A DNA stretch of 35,234 nucleotides from the NCBI GenBank assembly GCA_017465605.1, contig JAFTVW010000043.1:1-35234 (forward strand), in the 5' to 3' direction. The notes under the pieces were generated by a model that was not told the DNA's origin, ran no database searches, and was given only the letters and a program-made list of their open reading frames with translations. Within the stretch, counting starts at the first letter, position 1. Each line of letters starts with the position of its first letter. Both the position numbers and the translations under genes were made by a program. Below, piece after piece: positions 8,977 through 35,055 of the stretch. Source of the stretch: Alistipes sp. Lineage in GTDB: Bacteria; Bacteroidota; Bacteroidia; Bacteroidales; Rikenellaceae.

Positions 8977-10119
8977 ATGAGAATTAAATTCACTCCAAGT
9001 ATCAACTGCCAGATGCAGGATTGCGAACCGATATCGTTTCAAGGCGCACAGTCGAACAGTTTTAGAGTCCTTGTTATCAACACAGGCTCGACATCTACAA
9101 AGATAGCTGTTTATCAAGACGATGAGCCTATAATTGAGCAGACCCTCGCTCATTCGACCGAGGAGTTGTCGCGTTTTGGCAATGTAGTTGAACAATTGGA
9201 GTGGCGTCAGCAAATAATTCTCGATAACCTTGCGGCGGAAAATATTGCGATGGATTCCCTCTCGGCTGTAATTGGCCGAGGGGGTCTGTTGCGTCCCGTC
9301 AAAAGCGGAGTTTATAGGGTCAATCAGAAGATGATTGACGAACTGCATTGTTGTACGCCGCAGCACGCATCGAATCTGAGTGCGATTATTGCGGCCAGCA
9401 TTGCCGACAAATGTCAAATCTCGGCATATATTGCCGACCCGATTGTAGTTGACGAGCGAGCCGAAGTAGCAAAGATATGTGGCATCAAGCAGATTCGTTC
9501 ACGTTGCATATTCCACGCCCTGAATCAAAAGGCGACTGCTAGAATCTACGCCGATGAAATTGGCGAGTGCTACGAAAATCTGAATCTTGTGGTGGCGCAT
9601 ATGGGCGGAGGTATTTCGGTTGCTGCACACGAGAAGGGTGTGGTGGTAGATGTAAACAACGCGCTTGATGGCGAGGGGCCCATTGCTCCCGAAAGAGCTG
9701 GTACGCTTCCAGCAGGGGCATTGGTTGATATGTGTTTTTCGGGTGAATATACCCACCAGCAGATAAATTCAATGATAGTAGGCAAAGCAGGTCTGGTATC
9801 ATTGACAGGCTGCAATTCAGTAAAAGAGCTATGCGACAAGGCGCAAGCGGGTGATGCTGAGGCTGAGATGGCTATCGAGGCGATGTGCTACACCACTGCC
9901 AAGCAGATTGGCGCAATGGCCACCGTACTAAAAGGTAATGTAGATGCGATCCTCCTTACGGGAGGAATCACCAACAGCAAATTCATAGTCGAACAAGTAA
10001 GTGGTTACTGCCGCTATATAGCTCCTATCAGAGTATATCCGGGAGAGAATGAGTTGATGGCACTTGCGATGAATGCAATGAGAGTATTGCGAGGTCAGAC
10101 TCAGGCACAAGACTACTAA
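8977..10119 (+). CDS. buk: Butyrate kinase
   Basis: Butyrate kinase makes ATP from butyryl (or isobutyryl/isovaleryl) phosphate. It is an ASKHA-fold kinase related to AckA. Visible motifs are VLVINTGSTSTKIAVY (31-46), the GRGGLLRPVKSGVY loop, HMGGGISVAAH, the DALDGEGP-like NNALDGEGPIAPERAG, and ILLTGGITNS near the C-terminus. The protein is 380 residues, roughly 25 longer than usual, because about 28 residues precede the first beta strand. An internal ATG at 9013 (MQDCEP) could be the true start, but still leaves about 18 extra residues. It forms a fermentation module with ptb and ackA. Confidence 0.94.
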   Translation: MRIKFTPSINCQMQDCEPISFQGAQSNSFRVLVINTGSTSTKIAVYQDDEPIIEQTLAHSTEELSRFGNVVEQLEWRQQIILDNLAAENIAMDSLSAVIGRGGLLRPVKSGVYRVNQKMIDELHCCTPQHASNLSAIIAASIADKCQISAYIADPIVVDERAEVAKICGIKQIRSRCIFHALNQKATARIYADEIGECYENLNLVVAHMGGGISVAAHEKGVVVDVNNALDGEGPIAPERAGTLPAGALVDMCFSGEYTHQQINSMIVGKAGLVSLTGCNSVKELCDKAQAGDAEAEMAIEAMCYTTAKQIGAMATVLKGNVDAILLTGGITNSKFIVEQVSGYCRYIAPIRVYPGENELMALAMNAMRVLRGQTQAQDY

Positions 10120-10145
10120 TCACAGCAAAAACGACTAATCAATAT

Positions 10146-10568
10146 ATGAAAAAGATACTTATTCTTAATGGCCCAAACCTCAATCTGCAAGGCAAACGTG
10201 ATGTGGAGGTTTACGGCACAACCACTTTCGAGGAGTACACAGCATCACTGGCTGAGCGATATGCAGACAGAGTGGAGTTTGATTACTTCCAGTCGAATAT
10301 CGAAGGAGAATTGATAAATGCCGTACATCAAAGCGTAGGTCGCTACGACGGCATCGTGCTGAACGCAGGAGGTTACACACATACATCGGTAGCTCTGCGT
10401 GATGCTATCTCGGCAGTCTCGACACCCGTTGTAGAGGTTCACATCTCATCAATTCTCGCACGCGAGGAGTTCCGCCATATATCAATGATTGCACCCGTAG
10501 CCAAAGGTTCGATTATGGGATTTGGTCTCGACTCATATCGCTTGGGAGTAGAGGCATTGATTGGGTAG
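10146..10568 (+). CDS. aroQ: 3-Dehydroquinate dehydratase, type II
   Basis: The enzyme catalyses the third step of the shikimate pathway, 3-dehydroquinate to 3-dehydroshikimate. The 140-residue protein is the usual size and begins with ILNGPNLNLQGKR, the family signature, followed by the catalytic-loop Tyr23 in EVYG. Later blocks are IEGELI, LNAGGYTHTSVALRDAI with the catalytic His, EVHISSILAREEFRH, and PVAKGSIMGFG. It starts 26 bp after buk and is followed closely by the flippase gene, so it is probably in the same transcript. The link to the fermentation genes appears positional rather than metabolic. Confidence 0.96.
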   Translation: MKKILILNGPNLNLQGKRDVEVYGTTTFEEYTASLAERYADRVEFDYFQSNIEGELINAVHQSVGRYDGIVLNAGGYTHTSVALRDAISAVSTPVVEVHISSILAREEFRHISMIAPVAKGSIMGFGLDSYRLGVEALIG

Positions 10569-15126: not shown

Positions 15127-16254
15127 CTATTTATTGAGCGTAAAGGAGAAAATGTAGGGATTGTCATATTCCCCGACCTGCTCGAAACCTTTCCTTTCTA
15201 TAAGAAAATCTACCGACCAATAACAGAAAATCTTATCGCCCGACATTACTGCATTATGTTGGAAAAAGAATGGGTATTTTTTATCCTCAAATATTGAATC
15301 CTCACGGGTGAATATCTTTGTCTGACCTGTTTTGAGGTTGTGGCGAATTAGGTGTAAGCCTGATTTCGGATTGTCATAACCACCTTGAACCACCGCCATC
15401 GGCATCACAAAAATCTCATCTCCCCGAACTTCGATATGCTTGATATGATAGAGATACTCTTTGCGCTCCGAGACCTTATCCATCAGCTTCATTTGCGTAA
15501 GAGTTGCTATCTCCTGTTGCGTTGCGCTACCACTCAAATCAAAATCAAAAGTTATGAAAGGTGTTAAAGAACGCTCACTGAGGCGATAGACTATGTTGTC
15601 GTAGGGTCGTGCCACAAGTGGGTCGCCCTCGTACTCGCCAATAAATATCGGCGCTGGGCCACTCATTCCATACAAATCCTCGATGCTTGGCAGATGACGC
15701 ACATCAATCTCACCCGTCGTTAAATCCATACGGTTAAAATAGCAAGAGTCGGCCAGCTCGGAGTAGAGCCAAATCTTATTGCCACGAGGGCGGTCCATCT
15801 TGGTAAAGCGGCCTTTCTTGTATCGAGTTTCACCCACAAACTCGCCACTCAGTTTATAGGTGAGAATCTTACCCATATCGAGCACATATAGTTTGCCGTC
15901 GGCCACAACAACATCGCGAAGCGAAATAAACTCCTTGGGGCCGCGACCTTGATGCCCTATGCAATTGAGAAATTTACCCGTCGCTGCGTCGAACACCAAT
16001 ATCTTATTGTTTTCTTTGTCAACTACGATAAGTTTTCCATCGTCATATAGCAGTTTGGAGATATTACCTACAAGCGAAGCATCGGTTGTCTCCAACGGTA
16101 TATATCCATCGTAACTCTTCACATATTCATCAATCGACACATTTTGTTTAAGAGCTATCTTACACTTTCTGTTTTGGATTTGCGCCGAGCAACTCACAAA
16201 GCCCAAGGCCGATAAAGCCAAACAAAACAATAGAAGCAATAGAAATCGTTTCAT
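15127..16254 (-). CDS. Secreted 6-bladed beta-propeller protein
   Basis: A 375-residue protein with an N-terminal signal (about 1-22, ending GFVSCSAQ). The Cys could be a lipidation site or the signal could be cut by signal peptidase I after SAQ. The rest is made of repeating beta blades, each with a pattern like DGKLIVVDKENNKILVFDAATGKFL or GKLYVLDMGKILTYKLSGEFV. This matches the 6-bladed beta-propeller (BF2992-type, NHL-like) families common in Bacteroidota. No catalytic motif is visible and the ligand is unknown. It is expressed from the minus strand, downstream of the patatin gene but separated from it by a terminator. Confidence 0.82.
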   Translation of the reverse strand: MKRFLLLLLFCLALSALGFVSCSAQIQNRKCKIALKQNVSIDEYVKSYDGYIPLETTDASLVGNISKLLYDDGKLIVVDKENNKILVFDAATGKFLNCIGHQGRGPKEFISLRDVVVADGKLYVLDMGKILTYKLSGEFVGETRYKKGRFTKMDRPRGNKIWLYSELADSCYFNRMDLTTGEIDVRHLPSIEDLYGMSGPAPIFIGEYEGDPLVARPYDNIVYRLSERSLTPFITFDFDLSGSATQQEIATLTQMKLMDKVSERKEYLYHIKHIEVRGDEIFVMPMAVVQGGYDNPKSGLHLIRHNLKTGQTKIFTREDSIFEDKKYPFFFQHNAVMSGDKIFCYWSVDFLIERKGFEQVGEYDNPYIFSFTLNK

Positions 16255-17444: not shown

Positions 17445-18947
17445 CTACAACGTCACACCGCTCTTGAAGATTGCAAGTTCCTTGAATCCGGCCTGTTCGT
17501 GCTTTAACTCCTTGCCGTTGACAACGGCCAATACCTCATCTACAAGATGGCACAAAACCTGCTGCACATCTACCTGCGGCTCAACCATAACACCCGCATC
17601 GAAATCTATCCAGCCTGCTTTGAATCGAGCGAGGTGGGAGTTCGTGGAGATTTTCATAGTGGGGACAACCGTACCAAATGGAGTACCTCGCCCCGTAGTA
17701 AACAGCACAATCTGACACCCCGACAAGGCCAACGCCGACGATGCTACAAGGTCGTTACCAGATGCCTGCAACAGATTAAGGCCACTACGCTTTATCGGTG
17801 CGCAATAACTCAACACACCGACTACCGCCTGACTGCCACCCTTCTGCACGCAGCCCAACGATTTCTCCTCCAATGTTGTAATTCCACCACTCTTGTTTCC
17901 GGGCGAAGGATTTTCGTAGATTGGCTGATTATAGCTTCTGAAATACTCCTTAAAGTCGTTTATCAACTTAACAGTACTATCGAACACGCTCCTATCTGCT
18001 GCTCGATTCATCAAGATTGTCTCGGCTCCAAACATCTCTGGCACTTCCGTCAACACAGTTGTACCGCCGCGCGAAATCAACCAATCCGAGAATTGTCCCA
18101 CAAGCGGATTAGCCGTGATTCCCGACAAACCATCAGAACCACCACACTTCAACCCGACACGCAAAAGACTGAGTGGCAACGGTTCTCGCTTATCGCCGCG
18201 CATCTCCTCTACAAGTTCACTGCATAGCTTAAAGCCCTCCTCTACTTCATCTTCAACCTGTTGCGCAACCAAGAAACGCACTCGCTCACAATCCCAATCG
18301 CCGAGTAATTCTTTGAGCGATGCAATTTGGTTGTTCTCACAACCCAATCCCAGCACCAACACTCCTCCCGCGTTTGGGTGCTTGATAAGTGCAGCCAAAG
18401 CTCGCTGGGTGTTAGCGTGGTCTTCGCCCAACTGCGAACAACCGTAATTGTGGGTAAAAGCTCGTACATCATCTAATTGCGAACAGTCGCACTCTCGCTT
18501 TACACGCTCAACAATAGCCTGCGCCTGACCATTCACACAACCCACAGTAGGCACGACCCACAACTCATTACGGATACCCATCTGACCATCTTTGCGCAAA
18601 TAACCCATCACACTGGGCGCATCGTTGATAGACGTTTCAGTCTGACAAAGTGTAGGCAACGGATTGTATTGGTATTCCAAATTATCTTGCAAATTGGTGG
18701 ATAAATTATGCGAATGAATCCACTCGCCTCGCCTAACGGGGCGAGTGAGATGACCTATCGGATAACCATATTTTATAACGTTGTCACCCAAAGCCATATC
18801 CTGTAACGCAAACTTATGACCGCAAGCAATATCATCTTGTAGTACGACCTCCTGCTGCCCAACAACAACAGTCTCGCCTCGGCTCAAATCCTCGGCAAGA
18901 GCGATAGCCACATTATCTGCGGCATTTATTTTCAAGTACCTCTTCAT
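17445..18947 (-). CDS. uxaA: Altronate dehydratase
   Basis: UxaA dehydrates D-altronate to 2-keto-3-deoxygluconate (KDG) in the galacturonate pathway. The product is 500 residues. An N-terminal SAF domain (about 1-90) carries the CGHKFAL stretch. The catalytic domain has GYLRKDGQMGIRNELWVVPTVGCVNG, THNYGCSQLGEDH, GLGCENNQ, LKCGGSDGLSGITANP and TGRGTPFGTVVPTMKIS, all typical of the UxaA/GarD family. I start at the ATG at 18947 (MKRYLKI), since the four codons upstream do not fit the family. This start lies inside uxaB and overlaps it by 35 bp, suggesting translational coupling. Confidence 0.96.
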   Translation of the reverse strand: MKRYLKINAADNVAIALAEDLSRGETVVVGQQEVVLQDDIACGHKFALQDMALGDNVIKYGYPIGHLTRPVRRGEWIHSHNLSTNLQDNLEYQYNPLPTLCQTETSINDAPSVMGYLRKDGQMGIRNELWVVPTVGCVNGQAQAIVERVKRECDCSQLDDVRAFTHNYGCSQLGEDHANTQRALAALIKHPNAGGVLVLGLGCENNQIASLKELLGDWDCERVRFLVAQQVEDEVEEGFKLCSELVEEMRGDKREPLPLSLLRVGLKCGGSDGLSGITANPLVGQFSDWLISRGGTTVLTEVPEMFGAETILMNRAADRSVFDSTVKLINDFKEYFRSYNQPIYENPSPGNKSGGITTLEEKSLGCVQKGGSQAVVGVLSYCAPIKRSGLNLLQASGNDLVASSALALSGCQIVLFTTGRGTPFGTVVPTMKISTNSHLARFKAGWIDFDAGVMVEPQVDVQQVLCHLVDEVLAVVNGKELKHEQAGFKELAIFKSGVTL

Positions 18948-20436
18948 CGCTGACAACATTAATTATTAAACCCAAATCGTTTAACCCAAAAAAACGCTTT
19001 AACGTAGCGGCCATACCATTATGCTCGATATAATTCAGATAACCCGCAACCATTGGCACAAATCCCGTCACCTCCGAGAAATCGGCCTTGAAAATTCCGC
19101 TATTGCATACAATATTGGTAACGGTTGCCTCGATATTCTCTGAATCCCAATTTTCGCGGATATAGGCAACGTGCTCGGGCGTATCATCGGGAGTAAAGCC
19201 ACTATTCGGACTATAATATGCCAAAAGAGCAGCGAATGTCATACACTCATACTCGGCCACACGCCCAAGTTTAATCCAATTATCCAGCAACGATGGATAG
19301 TTACGCGCCTCCCACTTCGATAGCGAGTTGAGAGAGATGGATTTTAATTGATGCTTTATATATGGATTGTAGAATCGCTCCAAAATACTCGCGGCAAACT
19401 CCTTTAACTCCTGCGGCTCACCACTAATCATTGGAATCACATCGTATGCCACCATTCGATTTACGAATGTCTCGATATCTGAATTATTGAAGGCATCGAC
19501 AACCGTCTGGCAACCCATCAGCAATCCCATCGCAACCATTCCCGTATGCGAGCCATTTAAGATTCGCACTTTCTTATCGCGGTAAGAGTCAACCGAAGGG
19601 GTAAACACCACATTCAGGCCAGCTTGGTCTAACGGCAATAGTTCTTTTGCTCGCTCATAACCTTCGCCGCCAATAACCCATAGGTGATACAATTCGCCCA
19701 CCACAACGGCATTATCGTCGTAACCAATCTCCTGCTTCACTTCATCGATTCTGTCATCGGGAAAACCTGAGACAATACGGTCAACGAGCGAATTGCAGAA
19801 GCTACAACTACTCTCTACCCAATCCACAAACTCCTGCTCCAAATTGCAGCGACGAGCGTGACGCAAAACATACTCTTTGAGCGTCGAGCCATTATTTTCG
19901 ATAAGTTCACAGCATATAATCACAAGCCCATTCGACTTATCGCCCCCAAAATGCTTATATCGGCGATACAACAGAGCCGCTATTTTGGCAGGAAAAGAGA
20001 TTGGCGGACAAGCCTCCAAATCATCTTCCTCTTCGTAACGGATACCCGCCTCGGTGGTATTGGAGATTATAAGATTAAGCTCAGGACTGAGTATATACTG
20101 CTCGTATTTTTCATACTCCTCGTAGGGATTAAACGAATCCATCACACTCCGCACCATACGGACATCTCGCTTGGGTTGTTTATGCTCGATGCCCTCCAAA
20201 TAGACGTGATACATATTATCTTGCCGTTGCAGTACATCAAGCATCTGCTCTGCACCACCTGCCTTGCGGGGGCGAGGTTTGCAGATTGCCACACCTGCAT
20301 TCATCACACCCTTTTCATTGGCTATATCAATAGCCCAATCGGCAAATGCACGCAAGAAATTACCTTCGCCAAATTGCAGAATACGAACAGGGCGTTCAAC
20401 TCTTTCAACCGTAGATTTATTTAAATTCTTAATCAT
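18913..20436 (-). CDS. uxaB: Tagaturonate reductase
   Basis: UxaB reduces D-tagaturonate to D-altronate with NADH. The 507-residue protein belongs to the mannitol dehydrogenase-like long-chain family. It has the nucleotide-fold start RILQFGEGNFLRAFADW (about 18-34), NTTEAGIRYEE near the middle, and the catalytic KKVRILNGSHTGM stretch with the family's Lys/Asn/His pattern. The related mannonate oxidoreductase UxuB is an alternative, but pairing with uxaA points to UxaB. It follows the GH2-like gene by 32 bp and overlaps uxaA. Tagaturonate would come from galacturonate through UxaC, not found here. Confidence 0.93.
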   Translation of the reverse strand: MIKNLNKSTVERVERPVRILQFGEGNFLRAFADWAIDIANEKGVMNAGVAICKPRPRKAGGAEQMLDVLQRQDNMYHVYLEGIEHKQPKRDVRMVRSVMDSFNPYEEYEKYEQYILSPELNLIISNTTEAGIRYEEEDDLEACPPISFPAKIAALLYRRYKHFGGDKSNGLVIICCELIENNGSTLKEYVLRHARRCNLEQEFVDWVESSCSFCNSLVDRIVSGFPDDRIDEVKQEIGYDDNAVVVGELYHLWVIGGEGYERAKELLPLDQAGLNVVFTPSVDSYRDKKVRILNGSHTGMVAMGLLMGCQTVVDAFNNSDIETFVNRMVAYDVIPMISGEPQELKEFAASILERFYNPYIKHQLKSISLNSLSKWEARNYPSLLDNWIKLGRVAEYECMTFAALLAYYSPNSGFTPDDTPEHVAYIRENWDSENIEATVTNIVCNSGIFKADFSEVTGFVPMVAGYLNYIEHNGMAATLKRFFGLNDLGLIINVVSDEEVLENKCRR

Positions 20437-20468: not shown

Positions 20469-23363
20469 TTACTCGATTTTCTGAATCTTATACACCACGA
20501 AGTAGCAACCTTCGCCCTTATTGCGGAAACGGAAAGGCTCCAAACGTGTGGTACTACGGCCTGCGCTAACCTCCACACCCTTAAATTGTTTGCGCTCGAC
20601 AACTCGGCCCGCGGTACTTTGCAATTCTATGGTAAGATTCACCTTGCACGCCTCCTCCATATTGAAGATAACGGGACGTATCTGGTCTTGTGGTCCATAC
20701 ACCACATCTACATCGTCGCTCGCAGCCCAAATTCTATTGAATGCCATACGGTTGGCGTGGAATGCAAGTTTCGGCACATAGAACGGGTCAACAAGAGGCT
20801 TCTGATAGGTAAACATATTGGGGCCTGATTCCATCGAGCACCACGAATAACCACACACTCCTGCCATAGTCTGAATCTTCATTGACTCCCAAGCCGAGAA
20901 GGCCTGAAATGCCTGACTCGCACGCCACTCCGTAGCTTGCAGATTGCGACCAATGCTACCCTTCTCGTAATCCCACTCATAAGACTGCACCTTATACCAC
21001 GGCTCACGACGTGCCAACTCCCAGTTGGGTTGTGCTGCCGACTCCTCGTGTTCGAAGTTGAAATAGCACAAATCTTTGGCCTCCAAGCACTCCTTCGCCC
21101 AATCAGATGGGTGATTTCGGAGCTTGCTCCACTTTGCACCGTAGCCCGTATATGCATCTTGGCTTCCACGCGTCATCATCTTGTGCATCAACAACGGATT
21201 GGGAGCTACCTCATTGCCCTTGAAATCCCGTGTACCACGATAGCTGGCATATTGAGTATGCTGCCAGAACGAGGTGGGTGAAATAAGTCGGCTGGTATCG
21301 GTTGCTATGATGGTTGAAATTATGGCATTGAAATAGTCCTCAGTCTCCGAGAATGGGTGCTGCTTGAATCGGTTGGGGTGGTTGCTGGCCTCCCACATCA
21401 CAATCGATGGGTGGTTATACACCTGCTTCATATAGGCTGGGAAATGCTCTATATCAACATTGAAGGCATTTCCTTCACGAATCCAGCCCGCACTCTGCCA
21501 CAAGATATAGAAACCAAGTTGGTCGGCATACTCGGCATATCGTGGGTCGTTGACTCCCTCCGAAACGTGCATCTCGGCGTGGATATGGATTCTTAGCATA
21601 TTACCTCCAAGTTTTTCGCTCATCATAAAATCACGCATAACCTGCTCGTCGGTTGCACAACGCACGTGCTTTGCGATATTTTCGATTGGCAGACGATAAC
21701 CAAAATTCTGCGCCCCGTTGAGCATCTCAGGCTTGTTGTTGATATAAAGCAGGCCCTCACGTTGCTCGATTATGCGGACACCCGTAGTGGTGACATAATC
21801 ATCAATCGGCGTACCCTTCTCATCTTTCAACACCACCTCCACACGGTAGAGTTGCGGTTTGTAGGGCGACCAGAGATTTGGCGAAGGCAAAGTCACATCT
21901 ATCGCATACGAATTATTGACATTGGGGCGAATCAGTACCTCACGCGAAGCCGATGCCACACACTCACCCTCCTCTGGAAACCACGGATAGTAGTTGACCT
22001 CCAACTGAGCCTTTTTCGCAAAGACATCTTCGTTGCGGATATCAATCTTATGAGCTTGCACAGCCTCCGTATCGGAGAGTGATGTAGTATGCACCAACCC
22101 TTCGGTGATGTGCGCCTTATGCTCCGTAAGAACGAGTTTTGCACGACCCAAGAACCAACCGATATTACGGTCTGATGGAGAATGTAGCATTGGATAGCGT
22201 GAATAGTATGGCTTTACCCTTACTGCGATAACATTCTCGGCATTGGGTATTAGATACTCTCCAATCTCCACTCTCTTTGGCTCACGACCCTTTAATACCG
22301 CCGCAGGAACTCCATTTACCCATACTTCGCCCGCTGGGTCAAGTGCTTCGAGGTTAAGTTCTGCATATTTGAAATAACCAACCTTGACCTTCGTGCGCAG
22401 ATAATAGCTCTCGCCCGCTGCACTCTGTCCTCCGTGAACAGCTGGCAGGGTAACACTCTCCCACTGAGAATCATCGTAATCGTTAGCCGACCAATCTCTC
22501 ATCGAAGGTACTGCCTTGAACTCCTCGTCGAAATGAAGTATTGTAGAAAATGGCATTCGAGCATTATTCTTGTTGCGAACAAAACTATACATCGAACACT
22601 TTTCGATTGTGGCTTTACCATCAGCAGCCGACAACGCAAGTGATTCAATTTTATCTCCTATCTCCTCGCTCAGCTCAAACTCAAACACGCACTTATCGTG
22701 TGACGAAAAGAAGATTCTTCGATTCTCCAAATCGCCATACACCTCAAAATACGCCATCGGAGCGGCCAATGTGGCTTTATGTGATTTGTCGCCCACACGA
22801 GCCTCCACCCTATCACCATAGAGTGTGATATCAATCGGTTGTTTCTGCTCGGTAAGAAGTGATATTTTCAGAGCTGATGGAGCTTCATCAAGCCAGCATT
22901 TTAGCCTGAATCGCCAGTCAATCGGGCTAATCGTAGGCTTTGCCACTGCACCATCGAGGAGTAACTTTCCGTCGCTGATGCGCGCACCATCTCGGCACCA
23001 CATCTGCCACTGCTCGGCCTGCGCCTGCTCCTTGCCTGCCTTATAGCCATATGCCTGCCAATTATCAAGTGAAAGGGTACGACGTACCGATGTTGTAGGC
23101 TGAGGTTTGATTTTGGCTACTCGTTCACTAACTTCGTTATCGGTGAACATAGGAGTATTAAGTCCCTCATCTCCCCAGAACTTCGATGCATAGTCGGCAT
23201 ATCGGTTCAGAGCCTCAACTCTCTGCTCGGTATCGAACACCTCGGTCTCGCCATTAGCCTTCGCATCATTTTTGAAATGACGCATCTCAAAGATGGTTAC
23301 TTGCTGCTGAGCCGAAAGAGTAGTAGCAGTCAGCAAGAATGAAATAAATAACAACTTCCTCAT
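20469..23363 (-). CDS. Secreted GH2-like glycoside hydrolase with atypical catalytic motif
   Basis: A 964-residue protein with a signal peptide (about 1-18, LSAQ). An N-terminal region of about 250 residues is unusual for the family. It is followed by a GH2 sugar-binding jelly roll (about 275-415, with GEVWVNGVPA), an Ig-like domain (about 420-535), a TIM barrel (about 540-860) and a short beta C-terminus. The barrel contains HPSIVMWEASNHPNRF, where GH2 enzymes normally have the acid/base Glu after Asn; here it is Asn661-His662. NFEHEES (768-775) may hold the nucleophile, but I cannot place it firmly. Substrate is unknown; context suggests a uronate- or rhamnose-containing glycan. It starts 12 bp after the triple hydrolase gene and precedes uxaB by 32 bp. 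Confidence 0.85.
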   Translation of the reverse strand: MRKLLFISFLLTATTLSAQQQVTIFEMRHFKNDAKANGETEVFDTEQRVEALNRYADYASKFWGDEGLNTPMFTDNEVSERVAKIKPQPTTSVRRTLSLDNWQAYGYKAGKEQAQAEQWQMWCRDGARISDGKLLLDGAVAKPTISPIDWRFRLKCWLDEAPSALKISLLTEQKQPIDITLYGDRVEARVGDKSHKATLAAPMAYFEVYGDLENRRIFFSSHDKCVFEFELSEEIGDKIESLALSAADGKATIEKCSMYSFVRNKNNARMPFSTILHFDEEFKAVPSMRDWSANDYDDSQWESVTLPAVHGGQSAAGESYYLRTKVKVGYFKYAELNLEALDPAGEVWVNGVPAAVLKGREPKRVEIGEYLIPNAENVIAVRVKPYYSRYPMLHSPSDRNIGWFLGRAKLVLTEHKAHITEGLVHTTSLSDTEAVQAHKIDIRNEDVFAKKAQLEVNYYPWFPEEGECVASASREVLIRPNVNNSYAIDVTLPSPNLWSPYKPQLYRVEVVLKDEKGTPIDDYVTTTGVRIIEQREGLLYINNKPEMLNGAQNFGYRLPIENIAKHVRCATDEQVMRDFMMSEKLGGNMLRIHIHAEMHVSEGVNDPRYAEYADQLGFYILWQSAGWIREGNAFNVDIEHFPAYMKQVYNHPSIVMWEASNHPNRFKQHPFSETEDYFNAIISTIIATDTSRLISPTSFWQHTQYASYRGTRDFKGNEVAPNPLLMHKMMTRGSQDAYTGYGAKWSKLRNHPSDWAKECLEAKDLCYFNFEHEESAAQPNWELARREPWYKVQSYEWDYEKGSIGRNLQATEWRASQAFQAFSAWESMKIQTMAGVCGYSWCSMESGPNMFTYQKPLVDPFYVPKLAFHANRMAFNRIWAASDDVDVVYGPQDQIRPVIFNMEEACKVNLTIELQSTAGRVVERKQFKGVEVSAGRSTTRLEPFRFRNKGEGCYFVVYKIQKIE

Positions 23364-23375
23364 AATAGACTTATC

Positions 23376-25475
23376 CTATTTAGATATCAATTCTGCAATT
23401 TTCTCACTCCACATTTGGTATCCAGCACCGCTCAGATGCAGATAATCACCCGCATACAACTCCTTGCGAAGCGTTCCGTCGGGTTGCACAAACCACTCGG
23501 TGGGATTGATATACTCCACGCCCTTAATCTTCTTTGTAGCAAGTATTGAGTGAATCTTGTCGCAAGCTGCACGCGTTGACGATTGGGCCTCTAATCCTGC
23601 AGGCAGTAGGCCAAACAGAATAATCCGCGACGAGGGCATTTGTCGGCGAGCCTCCTCGGCACAAGCCACAATACCTTCGGCTATGAGTTCGGGGTCATCG
23701 CCTGCAACGACGTTGTTCACGCCGATTGTAATCACTACATTCTCGGGATTGCAATGATTGTAATTACCGTTCTTGATTCGCCATAACAGATGTTGTGTTC
23801 TATCGCCCGAAATGCCGGCACTCTCCCAAACATCTTTGCCGAGTGCATTATCCATTGCCTGCTTTCCTACCTTGTGAGTTACCAGTTGGCGATTACCACC
23901 AAAACCCTGCGTGATTGAGTTTCCAAGCAATAAAAGTCGAAGATTGCGCCCCTCCAACGTATGTTCGATATCCTTCGCTACACTATGCCACTCAGAGCCT
24001 TTACTCCACCCTGCGGCCGAGCGATACTCATTACCAGGAACGGGGTGAGTGCAACGATTGTGAGAATATCCCGTTGCCTTCAAAATAAAATCGACTATCG
24101 GCTTGGGATTATTAAGCGAATGAGGGTGATGATTGACCCCAGCTTTATGAATCACCGTCATCTTACCGCCATACGAGGTCAAAGCCTTCTCGAAAATAGT
24201 TGTATTCTCATCGACGGGAACAATCTCATCGGCATCTCCCACAACGTGAATCAACGCCACATCAGATTTGGCAAATTGTTTAGCGTGATTGACTGGATTC
24301 TTTTGCCAAGCCTTAGCTCCGGCAATATCCGTAAAGCCATAGGCCGCCATCATTGTTTTGATGCAACCCGCATCGCCCCGATACTTTCCTTCGCCTATTG
24401 GCCAGCTCTTCAAGTCCATTACGGGAGCATCACCATATATACAAGCCACCTTCGAAAGATTCTTGACGGCCCAATTATATATTATCAAACCGCCTCGGCT
24501 CATACCTTCGAGTACTGTCTTTCGATTCAGACCAGCTTTTACTGCTAATTTATAGAACGTATCCCATCGCTCCACAGCCTTCGGCGAGCCATACAAATCC
24601 CCCACTTCGCAATAGGTGAGATGGAATCCTCGCTCCAACAAATCGATATCGGTCTGTGGTTCGTGACCCCAGAAACGGGCGCGCCAAATCCAAGGATTAC
24701 CCTCGGCCACTTGATGTGGCTCAACAATGTAATAGCGCACACCTTCGTTGTCGAACTCATAGCCTTTATAGCCGTGAAAATTAAATTCACGTTTAGGTTT
24801 GATGGCAAAACGCCCTACCACATCGGCCTTTCGAGAAGGCACAACCGAAAGATAGCTATAAATTTTCTCCACAATATCGCCAGCACCTATCGACGAAGGG
24901 TGCAATCTATCAGTCATAAGGTATTCAACCCACTTGTCGCCGAATATATTGTGCAGATTTATGATATCGAGATTACGCTCATAGGCCGTCTGCTCGATTA
25001 CAGGAATTATCTCTTTGCATATGACTTGGTCTTGATTTGATTGTAGGAAACAGCGCACAGGAGTCATCAAAATAACCCTCGGGCGTGATGGCAAGTTACG
25101 ATACACATCTACCAACTTACGATAATCGTGGCCAAAATTGGCACGCCACTTATCGTTGCGATGGTTGGCATCATTAGTACCCAACTTTATAATCACCACA
25201 TCGGGATTATAATCAAGCGAGCGACGATATTGTTCGGTCTCGACGTATGGATATAGGCCCTCGCAGAGAGCGGTTGTCCCTGAAACTCCAAAATTTACAA
25301 TCTCGTACTCTTCGCCCAGCCACGCTTGCAACTGAACAGGAAAACAATTCTGCTCTCGATTGGCGACATAGGCTCCATAGGTAATACTATTACCCACACA
25401 AGCGACTTTTATCTTTTGTGCATAAGACTCGATGGCCACCATCAAGCAGACCATCAAAAATATAAATTTCTTCAT
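23376..25475 (-). CDS. Secreted triple hydrolase: SGNH, alpha/beta-hydrolase, SGNH
   Basis: A 699-residue protein with a signal peptide (about 1-19, ESYAQ) and three hydrolase domains in one chain. Domain 1 (about 21-212) is SGNH type: GNS with Ser30, Gly66, Asn101 in GTND, and Asp189-His192 in DRLH. Domain 2 (about 230-470) is alpha/beta-hydrolase type: GMSRGG with Ser326, an acid at Asp414 or Asp416 (GDADEIVP), and a His in NHHPH at 449-452. Domain 3 (about 500-699) is again SGNH: GNS with Ser520, Gly557, Asn587, and Asp677-His680 in DYLH. All three active sites look complete. The likely activity is removal of ester groups (acetyl, methyl, feruloyl or similar) from plant glycans; this is inference. 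It is first in the operon with the GH2-like gene, uxaB and uxaA. Confidence 0.9.
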   Translation of the reverse strand: MKKFIFLMVCLMVAIESYAQKIKVACVGNSITYGAYVANREQNCFPVQLQAWLGEEYEIVNFGVSGTTALCEGLYPYVETEQYRRSLDYNPDVVIIKLGTNDANHRNDKWRANFGHDYRKLVDVYRNLPSRPRVILMTPVRCFLQSNQDQVICKEIIPVIEQTAYERNLDIINLHNIFGDKWVEYLMTDRLHPSSIGAGDIVEKIYSYLSVVPSRKADVVGRFAIKPKREFNFHGYKGYEFDNEGVRYYIVEPHQVAEGNPWIWRARFWGHEPQTDIDLLERGFHLTYCEVGDLYGSPKAVERWDTFYKLAVKAGLNRKTVLEGMSRGGLIIYNWAVKNLSKVACIYGDAPVMDLKSWPIGEGKYRGDAGCIKTMMAAYGFTDIAGAKAWQKNPVNHAKQFAKSDVALIHVVGDADEIVPVDENTTIFEKALTSYGGKMTVIHKAGVNHHPHSLNNPKPIVDFILKATGYSHNRCTHPVPGNEYRSAAGWSKGSEWHSVAKDIEHTLEGRNLRLLLLGNSITQGFGGNRQLVTHKVGKQAMDNALGKDVWESAGISGDRTQHLLWRIKNGNYNHCNPENVVITIGVNNVVAGDDPELIAEGIVACAEEARRQMPSSRIILFGLLPAGLEAQSSTRAACDKIHSILATKKIKGVEYINPTEWFVQPDGTLRKELYAGDYLHLSGAGYQMWSEKIAELISK

Positions 25476-25649: not shown

Positions 25650-25698
25650 TTCTAATGTTTTGCATTTAGGTTGCACAAAATTTTTAACTCAAATCTAT

Positions 25699-28269
25699 AT
25701 GAAGAAGAAACTACATCTATTAACAAATCTCGCTATGGCTATCGCTGCAACCCTTATGATTGGTTGCGCTGGCGACCAAAAGCAGCAGGTGGGAACACGA
25801 ATTGACGCCCTTGACGCAGGAGCTTGGGAGGTATCAAAATGGATCTCAGCCCAAAATGCAACGGTTATCACTGATTACAACGATGGCCGAGCTGCCGATG
25901 GCGCAAGTTGGTTCCTTTCGACTATCAAGAACGAAAAGAAGGTTACGTCGGCCAAACTAATGGCAACAAGTTTGGGTGTTTTTGAGGTTTACATCAACGG
26001 TAAACCTATCGGTGAGGAGTTCCTAAAACCTGGATTCACTCACGTCTTGAAAACCCGCCGTTCATTTACCTACGACATCACCGACGCTTTCAAGAGTGGA
26101 GCCAATGCCGAAAACACCATCTCAGCACAGGTAACACCGGGCTGGTGGGCCGATAAGATTGTAACTCCTGGCGGAGGCAATGGCCCAATAGGCAAAAAGT
26201 GCGCGTTCCGTGCTGTTTTGGAGCTCACATACGCTGACGGTAGCACAAAGCTCTACGGTACCGACCTTGAAAATTGGAAGGCAGGAATCGCTGGCCCTGT
26301 AAAGCACGCTGCAATTTTCGATGGTGAGGAGTATGATGCTCGTGAGCCAATGGGTTATTTGAGCCCAGAAAAGCTCTCTACACCCGAGGAGAACAAAGAG
26401 TTTAAGGGTGAGATTCTTCCATCTGAGGGTGCCGAGATATATCTTCGTCGTGATATTACTCTATCACCCATTCGTCAATACACTTGGAAAGATGTAGAAA
26501 ACAAGAGCGAGCAAGAGCACGGTAAGGTGGTAATTGCGCAAGAGTACGCACCGGGGGCAACCATTACATTGCAACCTGGCGAGACTTTGGTTGTAGATTT
26601 TGGTCAGAACTGTGCAGGAGTACCCGAATTTGTATTCAAGGCTGCCGCTGGCACAAAGCTCCGTTGCTTACCCGGAGAGCTTCTTAACGATGGAAATGGT
26701 GCAAAGAAGCGTGGCATGGACGGTCCTGAGGGTAGTGTACACCGCGAGAATCTGCGTATTCCTAATACAGGTATCCGCCTCGATTATACTTTTGCCGATA
26801 GCAAAGATTATGTGACATATCACCCCTGCCACACATTCTACGGTTACCGTTACATCTCTGTTACTGCCGATGCAGAGGTAAGCATCAAGGCCGTAACAAC
26901 TATCCCCGTAACATCTATCGCTAAGGGTCTTGAAATAGGTAAAATCACAACTGGTGAAGAGTCGGTTAACAAGCTCATCTCTAACACATACTGGGGACAA
27001 CTCTCGAATTATCTCTCAGTTCCAACCGACTGCCCACAACGTAACGAGCGTTTGGGTTGGACTGCCGACACTCAGGTATTCACCGAGACGGGTACATTCT
27101 TTGCCAACACTCTCACATTCTTCCACAAGTGGATGCGCGATATGCGTGACAGTCAGAACGAGTTGGGAGGATACCCTGGTGTTGCTCCTTACGCACAGTA
27201 TGGCAACGAGAAGATGCGTTTGGGTTGGGCCGATGCTGGTATCATCGTACCCTGGACTGTATGGAAGCAGTTTGGCGACAAGCAGATTGTTGAAGAGAAC
27301 TGGGAATCGATGAACCTATTTATGAATCATATCTACGAGACCAAATACAATCACCAATCTCTAACAGCTGAGAACGGCAACTACCAGTGGGCCGATTGGC
27401 TAAGCTACGAACCTTTGGAGAGTAGCGGTGGAGGTGCATTTGGCAAAAAAGGCCCTCTGCCTGAGACATACGACTACTGGAACTATCTGAGTGCTTCGTA
27501 TTGGGCTATTGATGCTTCGATGATGCGCGATATGGCAGCAGCTACTGGTCGCGATGCGGCTAAGTATCAGAAGATGGCTGATGAGGCTAAGGCATACATC
27601 AAGGAGCAATTCTTCAAGGCCGACGGCACATTCAAGACAGAGATTCTCAACACTATGCAGACTCCTGCTCTGTTTGCGTTGAAGAACGGCATCGTAGAGG
27701 GCGAGGCTAAGACCAAGATGATTGAGCGTCTGCGCGAGAATTTTGCTCAGCACGGCAATTGCTTGCAGACTGGATTCTTGGGTACTTCAATCCTGATGTC
27801 AACCCTCACCGACAATGGAATGGTCGATATTGCTTACGAGCTTCTTTTCCAGCGCAAGAACCCCAGCTGGCTCTACTCGGTTGACAACGGTGCCACCACA
27901 ATTTGGGAGCGTTGGAACAGCTATATGCTTGACAAGGGTATGGGTCCACGCGGTATGAATAGCTTCAACCACTACGCTTACGGTTGCGTATGCGAGTGGA
28001 TTTGGGAGACCGCAGCAGGTATCTCATCTGACCCAGCAACACCCGGATTCAAGCATATCATTATGCGTCCTATCCCCGACAAGCGTTTGGGCTATGTGAA
28101 TGCCGAGTACAACTCAGCAGCAGGCCTTATCAAGAGTGCTTGGAAATATGAGGGCGACAAATGGATTTGGGAGTTCACAATCCCCGAGGGCGCAAAGGCT
28201 ACTGTAACTCTTCCGGGTGAAACCGAGTCGAAAGAGTACGCAAGCGGCACACACCGAATTGAGAAATAG
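25699..28269 (+). CDS. Alpha-L-rhamnosidase, GH78, lipoprotein
   Basis: GH78 enzymes release terminal alpha-L-rhamnose by inversion. The 856-residue product has a lipoprotein-type signal ending MIGC, so it should be anchored in a membrane. The N-terminal beta domains (about 30-400) include the YINGKPIGEEFLKPGFTHVLKTR region of the rhamnosidase N domain. The (alpha/alpha)6 catalytic barrel carries the general-acid region DCPQRNERLGWTAD near residue 445 and the downstream WERWNSY near 735, where the general base lies in characterised members. A C-terminal beta-sandwich ends the protein. The start at 25699 gives the signal peptide; an upstream TTG at 25660 overlaps the promoter region and is unlikely. 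Confidence 0.94.
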   Translation: MKKKLHLLTNLAMAIAATLMIGCAGDQKQQVGTRIDALDAGAWEVSKWISAQNATVITDYNDGRAADGASWFLSTIKNEKKVTSAKLMATSLGVFEVYINGKPIGEEFLKPGFTHVLKTRRSFTYDITDAFKSGANAENTISAQVTPGWWADKIVTPGGGNGPIGKKCAFRAVLELTYADGSTKLYGTDLENWKAGIAGPVKHAAIFDGEEYDAREPMGYLSPEKLSTPEENKEFKGEILPSEGAEIYLRRDITLSPIRQYTWKDVENKSEQEHGKVVIAQEYAPGATITLQPGETLVVDFGQNCAGVPEFVFKAAAGTKLRCLPGELLNDGNGAKKRGMDGPEGSVHRENLRIPNTGIRLDYTFADSKDYVTYHPCHTFYGYRYISVTADAEVSIKAVTTIPVTSIAKGLEIGKITTGEESVNKLISNTYWGQLSNYLSVPTDCPQRNERLGWTADTQVFTETGTFFANTLTFFHKWMRDMRDSQNELGGYPGVAPYAQYGNEKMRLGWADAGIIVPWTVWKQFGDKQIVEENWESMNLFMNHIYETKYNHQSLTAENGNYQWADWLSYEPLESSGGGAFGKKGPLPETYDYWNYLSASYWAIDASMMRDMAAATGRDAAKYQKMADEAKAYIKEQFFKADGTFKTEILNTMQTPALFALKNGIVEGEAKTKMIERLRENFAQHGNCLQTGFLGTSILMSTLTDNGMVDIAYELLFQRKNPSWLYSVDNGATTIWERWNSYMLDKGMGPRGMNSFNHYAYGCVCEWIWETAAGISSDPATPGFKHIIMRPIPDKRLGYVNAEYNSAAGLIKSAWKYEGDKWIWEFTIPEGAKATVTLPGETESKEYASGTHRIEK

Positions 28270-33524: not shown

Positions 33525-33555
33525 CAAATTTATGAAAAAAATGACACAAGAGCAA
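33525..33555 (-). promoter_or_regulatory. Promoter for the kdgK-kdgA-transporter operon
   Basis: Read on the minus strand, TTG (33555-33553) and TAAATTTG (33532-33525) are separated by exactly 20 bp, the Bacteroidota consensus arrangement. The -7 box lies 42 bp upstream of the kdgK start. Confidence 0.65.
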
Positions 33556-33587
33556 TATCCGAGCTGTCAAAAATCGAATAAATTATG

Positions 33588-33595
33588 TATATTTG
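33588..33595 (+). promoter_or_regulatory. -7 box for the sialidase gene
   Basis: TATATTTG matches TAnnTTTG, about 77 bp upstream of the ATG at 33673. No good TTTG is found at -33. It is divergent from the kdgK promoter. Confidence 0.4.
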
Positions 33596-33672
33596 TAAAA
33601 CAACGGAGAATAGTTGCTGGTGCAATCAAACTCGCGACCCAACTCCACGCAACAAATATAATAAAGATATAT

Positions 33673-35055
33673 ATGAGACATCTACTTCCTACTTCGCTAC
33701 TGAGTCTTGCTATTAGTATAGCGACCATTGCGTCAAGCGCAATCACAACCGTAGCCATAGCGCAGAATGTTATGCCACAACCCACCTCCGAGGAGGTAAA
33801 ACGTACACTCCACACAAAGGCGGGTGTCAACGTCTTCACAACCCCCAACGATGATGCAATCCCCTATCGTATTCCTGCCATTGCAGAGACACGCCGAGGA
33901 GAACTCATTGCAGTTGCCGACTATCGCCATAGCCGTAGCGATATAGGTTGGATTCGTGACGGACGTATAGACCTTGTGGGTCGTACAAGTAGCGACAATG
34001 GCGCAACGTGGGGCAAGGAGTTCACAATCATTGCAGGCAAGGGTGCTGCTTCCCCTGATTTTATGAACGTAGGATTTGGCGACCCCTGCATTGTGGCCGA
34101 CCGCGAGAGCGACGAGGTGCTGGTGGTGAGCTGTGCCGGCAATGTTGCATTCCTCTATGGCCAACGCAACAATCATCAGAATATGGTGCGTATGCGCAGT
34201 ATGGATTCAGGACGCACGTGGAGCAAACCCGACGATATGGCCGAGAGTATATATGCAATGTTCGACGAAGCTTCGTATGGTCCTGTAAAGTCGATGTTTA
34301 TGGCTTCGGGCCGCATTGTGCAGAGCCGTCAGGTGAAGGTGGGCGACTACTATCGTATATATGCCGCAGTGCTTGTTATCGACAAGAATAATGTGTGGTT
34401 CAATGCTGTGATCTACTCCGATGACTTCGGCCGCAAGTGGCATCTGCTGGGCGACAAGGAAGACGTAGCCATCACATCGCGTGCCGACGAAGCTAAGGTC
34501 GAGGAACTACCCGACAAGTCGGTTATCATAAGTTCACGCATCGCTGGTGGCCGCCAATATAATATCTACACCTACGACGATGTAGTATCAGCCAAAGGAC
34601 ACTGGGGTAAGATGGCATTTTCGGGTGCTGGCAATAAAGGCGTAACAGCCGAGAAAAATGCCTGCAATGGAGAGATGCTGATTCTTCCTGTCAAAAGCGT
34701 TGCCGATGGCTCACGCAACTATCTGTTGATGCAATCTGTCCCATTGGGTCCGGGACGTGCTAACGTGGGTATATATTATAAGGTACTGCGCCAGCCTGCC
34801 GACTACTCATCACCCGAGGTGCTGGCTCGCGATTGGGAAGGCTGCTTGCAAGTGACACGCTTAGGCTCGGCCTACTCGACAATGATCGAGCAACGTGGCG
34901 GCCGCATAGGATTCTTCTACGAAGAGGAGACCTTCTGCACTCCTCGTGGCGGAGGTTTTACATTGGTTTACAAAAACCTCTCGGTGGAAGATATCACCTC
35001 TGGCAAATATACCTTCGACCGTAAGCCCAAACTCAAAGCCTTCTTAAAACGATAA
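33673..35055 (+). CDS. Exo-alpha-sialidase, GH33 type
   Basis: A 460-residue secreted protein with an N-terminal signal (about 1-30, ending AIAQ). It has the YRIP motif with the first active-site arginine, ADYRHSRSDIG containing the likely acid/base Asp, and three Asp boxes (SSDNGATW, SMDSGRTW, SDDFGRKW). SSRIAGGRQYNIYT and a later SAYSTM region probably hold further active-site residues, and NACNGEM the catalytic Glu. These fit a six-bladed GH33 sialidase that removes terminal sialic acid. The frame opens earlier, at 33532, but the signal peptide begins at 33673. No sialic-acid catabolic genes are nearby. Confidence 0.9.
   Translation: MRHLLPTSLLSLAISIATIASSAITTVAIAQNVMPQPTSEEVKRTLHTKAGVNVFTTPNDDAIPYRIPAIAETRRGELIAVADYRHSRSDIGWIRDGRIDLVGRTSSDNGATWGKEFTIIAGKGAASPDFMNVGFGDPCIVADRESDEVLVVSCAGNVAFLYGQRNNHQNMVRMRSMDSGRTWSKPDDMAESIYAMFDEASYGPVKSMFMASGRIVQSRQVKVGDYYRIYAAVLVIDKNNVWFNAVIYSDDFGRKWHLLGDKEDVAITSRADEAKVEELPDKSVIISSRIAGGRQYNIYTYDDVVSAKGHWGKMAFSGAGNKGVTAEKNACNGEMLILPVKSVADGSRNYLLMQSVPLGPGRANVGIYYKVLRQPADYSSPEVLARDWEGCLQVTRLGSAYSTMIEQRGGRIGFFYEEETFCTPRGGGFTLVYKNLSVEDITSGKYTFDRKPKLKAFLKR

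Follow-up and report, generated by a model that had tools for sequence, protein, structure and literature searches.

Acyl decorations hinder the breakdown of glycans, and to our knowledge many SGNH and alpha/beta esterases of the Bacteroidota have no known substrate. Kmezik et al. (2020; PMC7110780, accessible sections) describe acetyl-feruloyl esterases in which distinct CE6 and CE1 domains are natively fused, from Bacteroides ovatus and Flavobacterium johnsoniae; for the former enzyme they reported intramolecular synergy. The first enzyme described as having three distinct esterase domains, according to the accessible sections of that report, is Fll4 of Flavimarina sp. Hel_I_48 (CE6-CE1a-CE1b), the third domain of which was inactive on the substrates studied (Teune et al., 2025; PMC12247016).

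Here, we analysed a 35,234-nucleotide stretch of an Alistipes sp. genome (contig JAFTVW010000043.1; hereafter the window) that encodes a single chain of 699 amino acids with an SGNH domain (D1), an alpha/beta-hydrolase domain (D2) and a second SGNH domain (D3), in this order from the N terminus and with no sign of a fourth module. The features are listed in Table 1. By sequence, the protein is of the same tri-catalytic kind as Fll4, with three distinct esterase-type domains in one Bacteroidota chain, and Fll4 likewise begins with an SGNH fold (CE6), followed by two putative CE1 domains. The two proteins differ in that Fll4, in the sections available, has SGNH, CE1a and CE1b around a central unassigned domain and is encoded in a xylan locus (PMC12247016). 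The CE6-CE1 enzymes differ in having two catalytic domains, of families CE6 and CE1, and also belong to xylan loci as far as the accessible text goes (PMC7110780). With a three-esterase enzyme already published, we regard the window protein, as judged by its sequence, as another variant among the multi-catalytic carbohydrate esterases. We found no paper on an enzyme of the order SGNH-alpha/beta-SGNH in a literature search that mostly could not reach subscription papers, and the phrase "two SGNH" did not occur in the passages of an SGNH review that were accessible (PMC9487903). This agrees with a preliminary description of the locus, which knew of no characterised enzyme with this order of domains.

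Table 1. Features of the esterase gene and its neighbours in the window, with the basis of each assignment.
Feature	Position	Strand	Basis
Three-domain esterase gene, 699 aa	23376..25475	-	ORF and translation; 14 three-domain relatives aligned
Apparent signal peptide, residues 1-20 (MKK...SYAQ), no lipobox	25416..25475	-	Inspection and pattern check
D1, SGNH/GDSL domain, residues 21-212, AxeA1-like; Ser30, Asn101, Asp189, His192	24840..25415	-	Pfam PF13472, NCBIfam, conservation
D2, alpha/beta-hydrolase domain, residues 213-470; Ser326, Asp416, His450	24066..24839	-	Sub-threshold Peptidase_S9 and alignments
D3, SGNH/GDSL domain, residues 471-699, PAF-acetylhydrolase/sialate-O-acetylesterase type; Ser520, Gly557, Asn587, Asp677, His680	23379..24065	-	phmmer and PDB profile
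GH2-like protein, 12 bases downstream of the esterase gene	20469..23363	-	Pfam PF00703/PF02836; same order in L062
Tagaturonate reductase (UxaB)	18913..20436	-	NCBIfam PRK03643, 529.5 bits, cut-off 359
Altronate/galactarate dehydratase type (UxaA)	17445..18959	-	Pfam GD_AH domains; NCBIfam galactarate dehydratase below cut-off
Divergent alpha-L-rhamnosidase-type gene (GH78 type)	25660..28269	+	PF17389 at 26935-28011, 1.2e-96

The three-domain esterase-type chain reported in the preliminary description is confirmed at the level of the sequence: three complete catalytic sets and an apparent signal peptide lie in one 699-residue protein, and the residue numbers given there are correct. By inspection, the N terminus (MKKFIFLMVCLMVAIESYAQ) resembles a type I signal peptide and has no lipobox. 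A lipobox-like pattern is likewise absent from 12 of the 15 three-domain proteins; L064 has VVGC, and the matches at L069 and L100 fall within the leader and are ambiguous.

The Pfam model Lipase_GDSL_2 (PF13472) matched the protein at two stretches (7.4e-45 for the whole protein, best stretch 26-197). D1 resembles the SGNH domain of the acetylxylan esterase AxeA1; residues 19-203 match positions 272-457 of the 459 positions of the NCBIfam profile NF042968 with 170.8 bits, which does not reach the full-length equivalog cut-off of 700 bits, and no other domain of the window protein matches this model. The best PDB profile match of D1 was a GDSL-like protein (2.3e-08). D3 is of the SGNH type of PAF-acetylhydrolase Ib (1fxw; 5.8e-18 by phmmer, 1.5e-36 by profile) and of the Phocaeicola vulgatus sialic acid acetylesterase PvSAE (7pzg; profile 7.9e-23; PMC9063846, accessible sections), and its profile also matched the sialate O-acetylesterase 6njc (1e-22). 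Both PAF-acetylhydrolase Ib and PvSAE are single catalytic domains, and D3 is likened to them by sequence and not by substrate. As the GxNN of D3 block III is common to PAF-acetylhydrolase (GTNN in the 1fxw alignment), GVNN in D3 marks a subfamily and is not an oddity. The preliminary description had pointed to clear differences between the two SGNH domains. This is borne out, as D1 and D3 share 51 identities over 182 columns (28%), which rules out a recent tandem duplication.

D2 is more distant from proteins of known structure. Its best PDB profile matches were a monoacylglycerol lipase (E 0.0029), with weak stretches at the nucleophile and the acid, and 3wyd (LC-Est1C; 0.0046), and thus no convincing solved relative was found in this search. 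Between the two Lipase_GDSL_2 stretches, Peptidase_S9 (PF00326) matched residues 318-449 with 19.7 bits, which is below its cut-off of 22.6. The same cut-off was passed by six of eight D2-bearing relatives scanned (22.8-27.9 bits) and not by the other two, and L085 and L098 were in addition above the cut-off of Abhydrolase_1. These matches support D2 as a predicted alpha/beta hydrolase. Although most of the relatives pass, we do not adopt Peptidase S9 as the name of D2, because the match in the window protein is sub-threshold; a distant predicted tie to the Peptidase_S9 superfamily stands. D2 may found a new esterase family.

We aligned the domains from proteins of any architecture. Ser30, Asn101, Asp189 and His192 of D1 are present in 34/34 sequences, and Ser520, Asn587, Asn588, Asp677 and His680 of D3 in 22/22, with Gly557 in 21/22. 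In D2, Ser326, which lies in a G-x-S-x-G nucleophile elbow (GMSRG), and Asp416 are found in 40/40 sequences, and His450 in 39/39 that reach the position, one row stopping at a contig end. The preliminary description had left the acid open between Asp414 and Asp416 and the base between residues 449 and 452. Conservation narrows these alternatives to a most likely predicted triad of Ser326-Asp416-His450, because His449 occurs in 34/39 sequences and Asp414 in only 27/40; the latter, replaced by Glu in L070 and by Ala in L073, is ruled out as the catalytic acid. When the 15 three-domain proteins, including that of the window, are compared, all keep the Ser/Asn/Asp/His residues of D1 and D3 and the triad of D2, even though the most distant have 44-50% identity. 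A sixteenth, from Phocaeicola massiliensis (L107), keeps them as well when read by eye. Among the 14 aligned three-domain proteins 151 of 699 columns are invariant, including the named catalytic Ser, Asn, Asp and His columns. The block II glycine of D1 (Gly66 in the window protein) is Gly, Ala or Ser in the same alignment; here the main-chain NH might do the job. Comparison with the sister protein at L062 (604/700 positions identical, stop included) gave dN/dS values of 0.033 for D1, 0.026 for D2 and 0.047 for D3 (Nei-Gojobori), which are rough since dS is near saturation (1.5-2.8). The sequences thus show purifying selection on each of the three domains.

A near-full-length match in one frame was found in 13 of 268 genomes of the family (own genome included), and in one more genome (G084) the protein is split, with one half at the end of each of two contigs. 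The order search (393 genomes, own included; E <=1e-30) and the phylum search (395 genomes, own included; E <=1e-50) each added a single genome, G522 with 50% and G953 with 44% identity. The order and phylum counts are lower bounds, as at most two candidates were scored per genome under these strict limits. Searching the genome contigs with a pattern yielded 54 matching stretches and one confirmed relative. Of 72,556 plasmid records nine matched, one of them over at least 80% (OY726026.1, Phocaeicola massiliensis, 54.6%). The gene on this record, which is the L107 copy, lies among genes that by eye read as chromosomal housekeeping genes. The record is therefore probably a piece of chromosome, and we consider a plasmid origin of this copy doubtful. 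Occurrence in a single frame in 13 family genomes, and singly beyond the family, rules out a one-off fusion or an assembly artefact. The three-domain protein is a conserved family.

The domains also occur in other combinations. There are two-domain forms with D1-D2 alone or D1-D3 alone (L090-L093), and D2 is the sole domain of proteins of 266-343 aa (L102-L105). D2 is also found fused behind a GH20 domain (L095), and D1-D2 is followed by an alpha-L-fucosidase of GH29 in L101 (97.8 bits for the fucosidase part) and by a weak GH99-like part in L084 (22.8 bits, cut-off 33). In further proteins D2 precedes an SGNH domain of another subfamily, here SGNH', either on its own (L096-L099, L106) or behind D1 (L082, L085, L086). 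The latter three have the same SGNH, alpha/beta, SGNH order as the window protein and differ from it in the subfamily of the third domain and in a further C-terminal part. The D3 profile gave 5.4-22.4 bits against eight SGNH' pieces (6.5-8.0 bits for L082, L085 and L086), compared to 267.5 bits for the D3 of L094, itself left out of the profile. Because SGNH' is another subfamily than D3, the order exists with two unlike third domains. Matches to CE2_N behind SGNH' were all below the cut-off.

One clade of the D2 tree (99/95) unites 13 three-domain rows with five D1-D2 rows, among them L078, which is truncated where its contig stops; the three-domain L074 and L100 fall outside it. In the D3 tree, the three-domain D3s group with G084 and L094 (17 rows; 95/91), separately from the D1-D3 proteins. 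If three domains are ancestral in the D2 clade, which unrooted counts do not show, D3 would have been lost in L075-L077 and in L080; a tblastn search of these loci (E <=1e-4) found no D3. The D1 tree separates L075 and L076 from L077, so the count of losses is uncertain. The L094 protein (8991-10313 on the plus strand, 440 aa) carries a D1-like part (25.1 bits to the D1 profile) in which the catalytic serine is missing (GND for GNS), as are the later SGNH motifs, fused to an intact D3. This D1-like domain is a probable pseudo-enzyme domain.

We consider it fairly likely that the window protein is a tri-catalytic serine esterase of the periplasm. It would strip decorated oligosaccharides of several O-acyl groups, for the most part acetyl, and thereby open them to glycosidases. 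D1 and D3, as two unlike acetylesterase-type SGNH domains, would serve different positions or sugars. The alpha/beta hydrolase D2, for which we found no close relative that has been characterised, would remove a third ester. We infer the periplasmic location and the activity of all three domains. A leaving group that is mostly acetyl is supported by the matches of D1 to AxeA1 and of D3 to PAF-acetylhydrolase and sialate O-acetylesterases, which both act on acetyl esters. That the substrate would be a glycan is indicated by the fusions of D1-D2 to a fucosidase and of D2 to GH20. The intact catalytic residues, the low dN/dS, the adjacent uronate genes and the PF17389 enrichment described below also favour our reading. 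The variable block II glycine of D1 and the lack of D3 in close relatives count against it, as do the missing solved relative of D2, the varied neighbours in other genomes and the absence of SusC- or SusD-like proteins among the window proteins scanned. The missing D3, together with the dead D1-like domain beside an intact D3 in L094, could instead mean that just two domains work in practice, with the third serving as structure or no longer functional even though its motif is intact. We find this rather unlikely, as the catalytic residues are kept in 15/15 three-domain proteins and dN/dS is low in each domain. The natural relatives lacking D2 or D3 offer a direct route to assigning the role of each domain.

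Beyond the tri-catalytic esterase itself, we put forward, tentatively and with less than even confidence, that D1, D2 and D3 form a portable deacylation kit of complementary specificities. Chains of the order SGNH-alpha/beta-SGNH would have been built from it repeatedly, in one lineage with D3 and elsewhere with the other SGNH subfamily, because several different acyl groups on one sugar unit need joint removal, and D2 would then found a new carbohydrate esterase family.

The preliminary description linked the gene to a GH2-like enzyme and galacturonate catabolism, and GH2-like, tagaturonate reductase and altronate dehydratase-type genes do follow the esterase gene on the same strand. Behind the GH2-like gene, which is probably on one transcript with the esterase gene, a gap of 32 bases leads to uxaB, and the uxaB and UxaA-type genes overlap as called. 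The window also encodes a KDPG aldolase (NCBIfam) and, from its sequence, a possible 2-keto-3-deoxygluconate kinase. The divergent rhamnosidase-type gene matched the NCBIfam rhamnosidase models below their cut-offs. Its ORF starts with TTG, and an ATG 39 bases into the frame is a likelier start; the distance to the esterase gene is 184 bases as called and 223 from this ATG. No SusC- or SusD-like protein was found among the window proteins scanned (9 with Pfam; 10 + 2 with NCBIfam). Because of the genes next to the esterase gene, the substrate in this species would likely be an oligosaccharide with rhamnose and galacturonate, which is the weakest step of our proposal. GH2 enzymes usually carry an Asn-Glu motif with the acid/base glutamate; the GH2-like protein has HPSIVMWEASNHPNRF in its place, identically in the L062 sister, and its acid/base glutamate seems to be replaced.

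In relatives, we scanned 20 neighbour proteins with Pfam. Besides the rhamnosidase type, which the D1-D2 locus L077 keeps in divergent orientation, we found glycosidases of GH92 (L064), GH20 (L068, L072), GH42 (L074) and GH31 (L076) and GxDLY-type esterases (L063, L068). Other neighbours are peptidases of the S41 (L066) and S66 (L072) types, a metallophosphatase (L066), a GntR regulator and a BNR protein (both L067), a lactamase-fold protein (L077), and the housekeeping-type TsaD (L071) and PP-loop (L073) proteins; two scanned proteins, from L069 and L070, had no Pfam match. At L107 the gene lies between a BlaI/BlaR-like pair and guaB, as named by eye, with no PF17389-type gene near it by eye. 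PF17389 genes were present in the fetched flanks of 6/15 genomes (G000, G039, G048, G084, G136, G197), where 0.55 were expected. These 15 were G084 and the 14 genomes that carry a copy in one frame and whose flanks were fetched; L107 and G953, the latter with short flanks, did not enter the set. The enrichment has P = 4e-6 if all genomes are independent, which ignores sugar-gene clustering and kinship. Taking the six positives as about four lineages gives P = 1.3e-3 for four or more, still uncorrected for sugar-gene clustering. No PF17389 match was found anywhere in four of the 15 genomes (G219, G221, G212, G194). As a control, the family matched in 5 of 14 named genomes, in two of them above the cut-off.

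The preliminary description had suggested a multi-specific esterase for pectin-like glycans, and a dedicated pectin multi-esterase (RG-I or RG-II type), with D1 and D3 as deacetylating domains and D2 acting on either a methyl ester or a feruloyl ester, would suit the uronate genes, the aldolase, the possible kinase and the rhamnosidase-type gene in the window as well as the PF17389 enrichment. The part of the suggestion that holds is local: the GH2-UxaB-UxaA row was found in the window and at one sister locus (L062, 86% identity) and did not turn up at 18 further loci that carry a three-domain copy or a close D1-D2 one. As neighbourhoods vary widely between relatives, with some copies beside housekeeping-type genes and four genomes without any PF17389 match, the pectin reading does not extend to the family, and we regard such a dedicated enzyme as unlikely. 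Nothing was found that points to methyl or feruloyl esters. The GH92, GH20, GH42, phosphatase, peptidase and housekeeping-type neighbours elsewhere make one fixed substrate unlikely. The varying neighbourhoods, including that of the Phocaeicola massiliensis copy, and the PF17389 enrichment would also fit a deacylase of broad range that acts on varied acylated oligosaccharides or on plant glycosides (e.g., acylated rhamnosides), with no single polysaccharide as its target. We hold this to be doubtful, since the fucosidase and GH20 fusions suit glycans more than small glycosides.

Several further esterase-like proteins were seen in passing. A double esterase of about 580 aa at L068 (7100-8848; GxDLY, GDSL_3, GDSL_2) matches D3 at about 30%, as does a frame of 580 aa in the own genome (G000:C58:73475-74032). 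Just upstream of the D1-D2-fucosidase gene of L101 lies a gene for a 285-aa SGNH protein (566-1423 on the plus strand) with 27.6% identity to D3, in which the block II glycine is replaced in the alignment. Elsewhere in the window, a sialidase-like protein (33532-35055, plus strand) matched NeuramTDE0471 with 288.7 bits, short of the cut-off of 900, and a DUF5128/DUF4934 six-bladed beta-propeller protein (15127-16254, minus strand) has a dicarboxylate symporter gene on one side and a patatin-like gene on the other.
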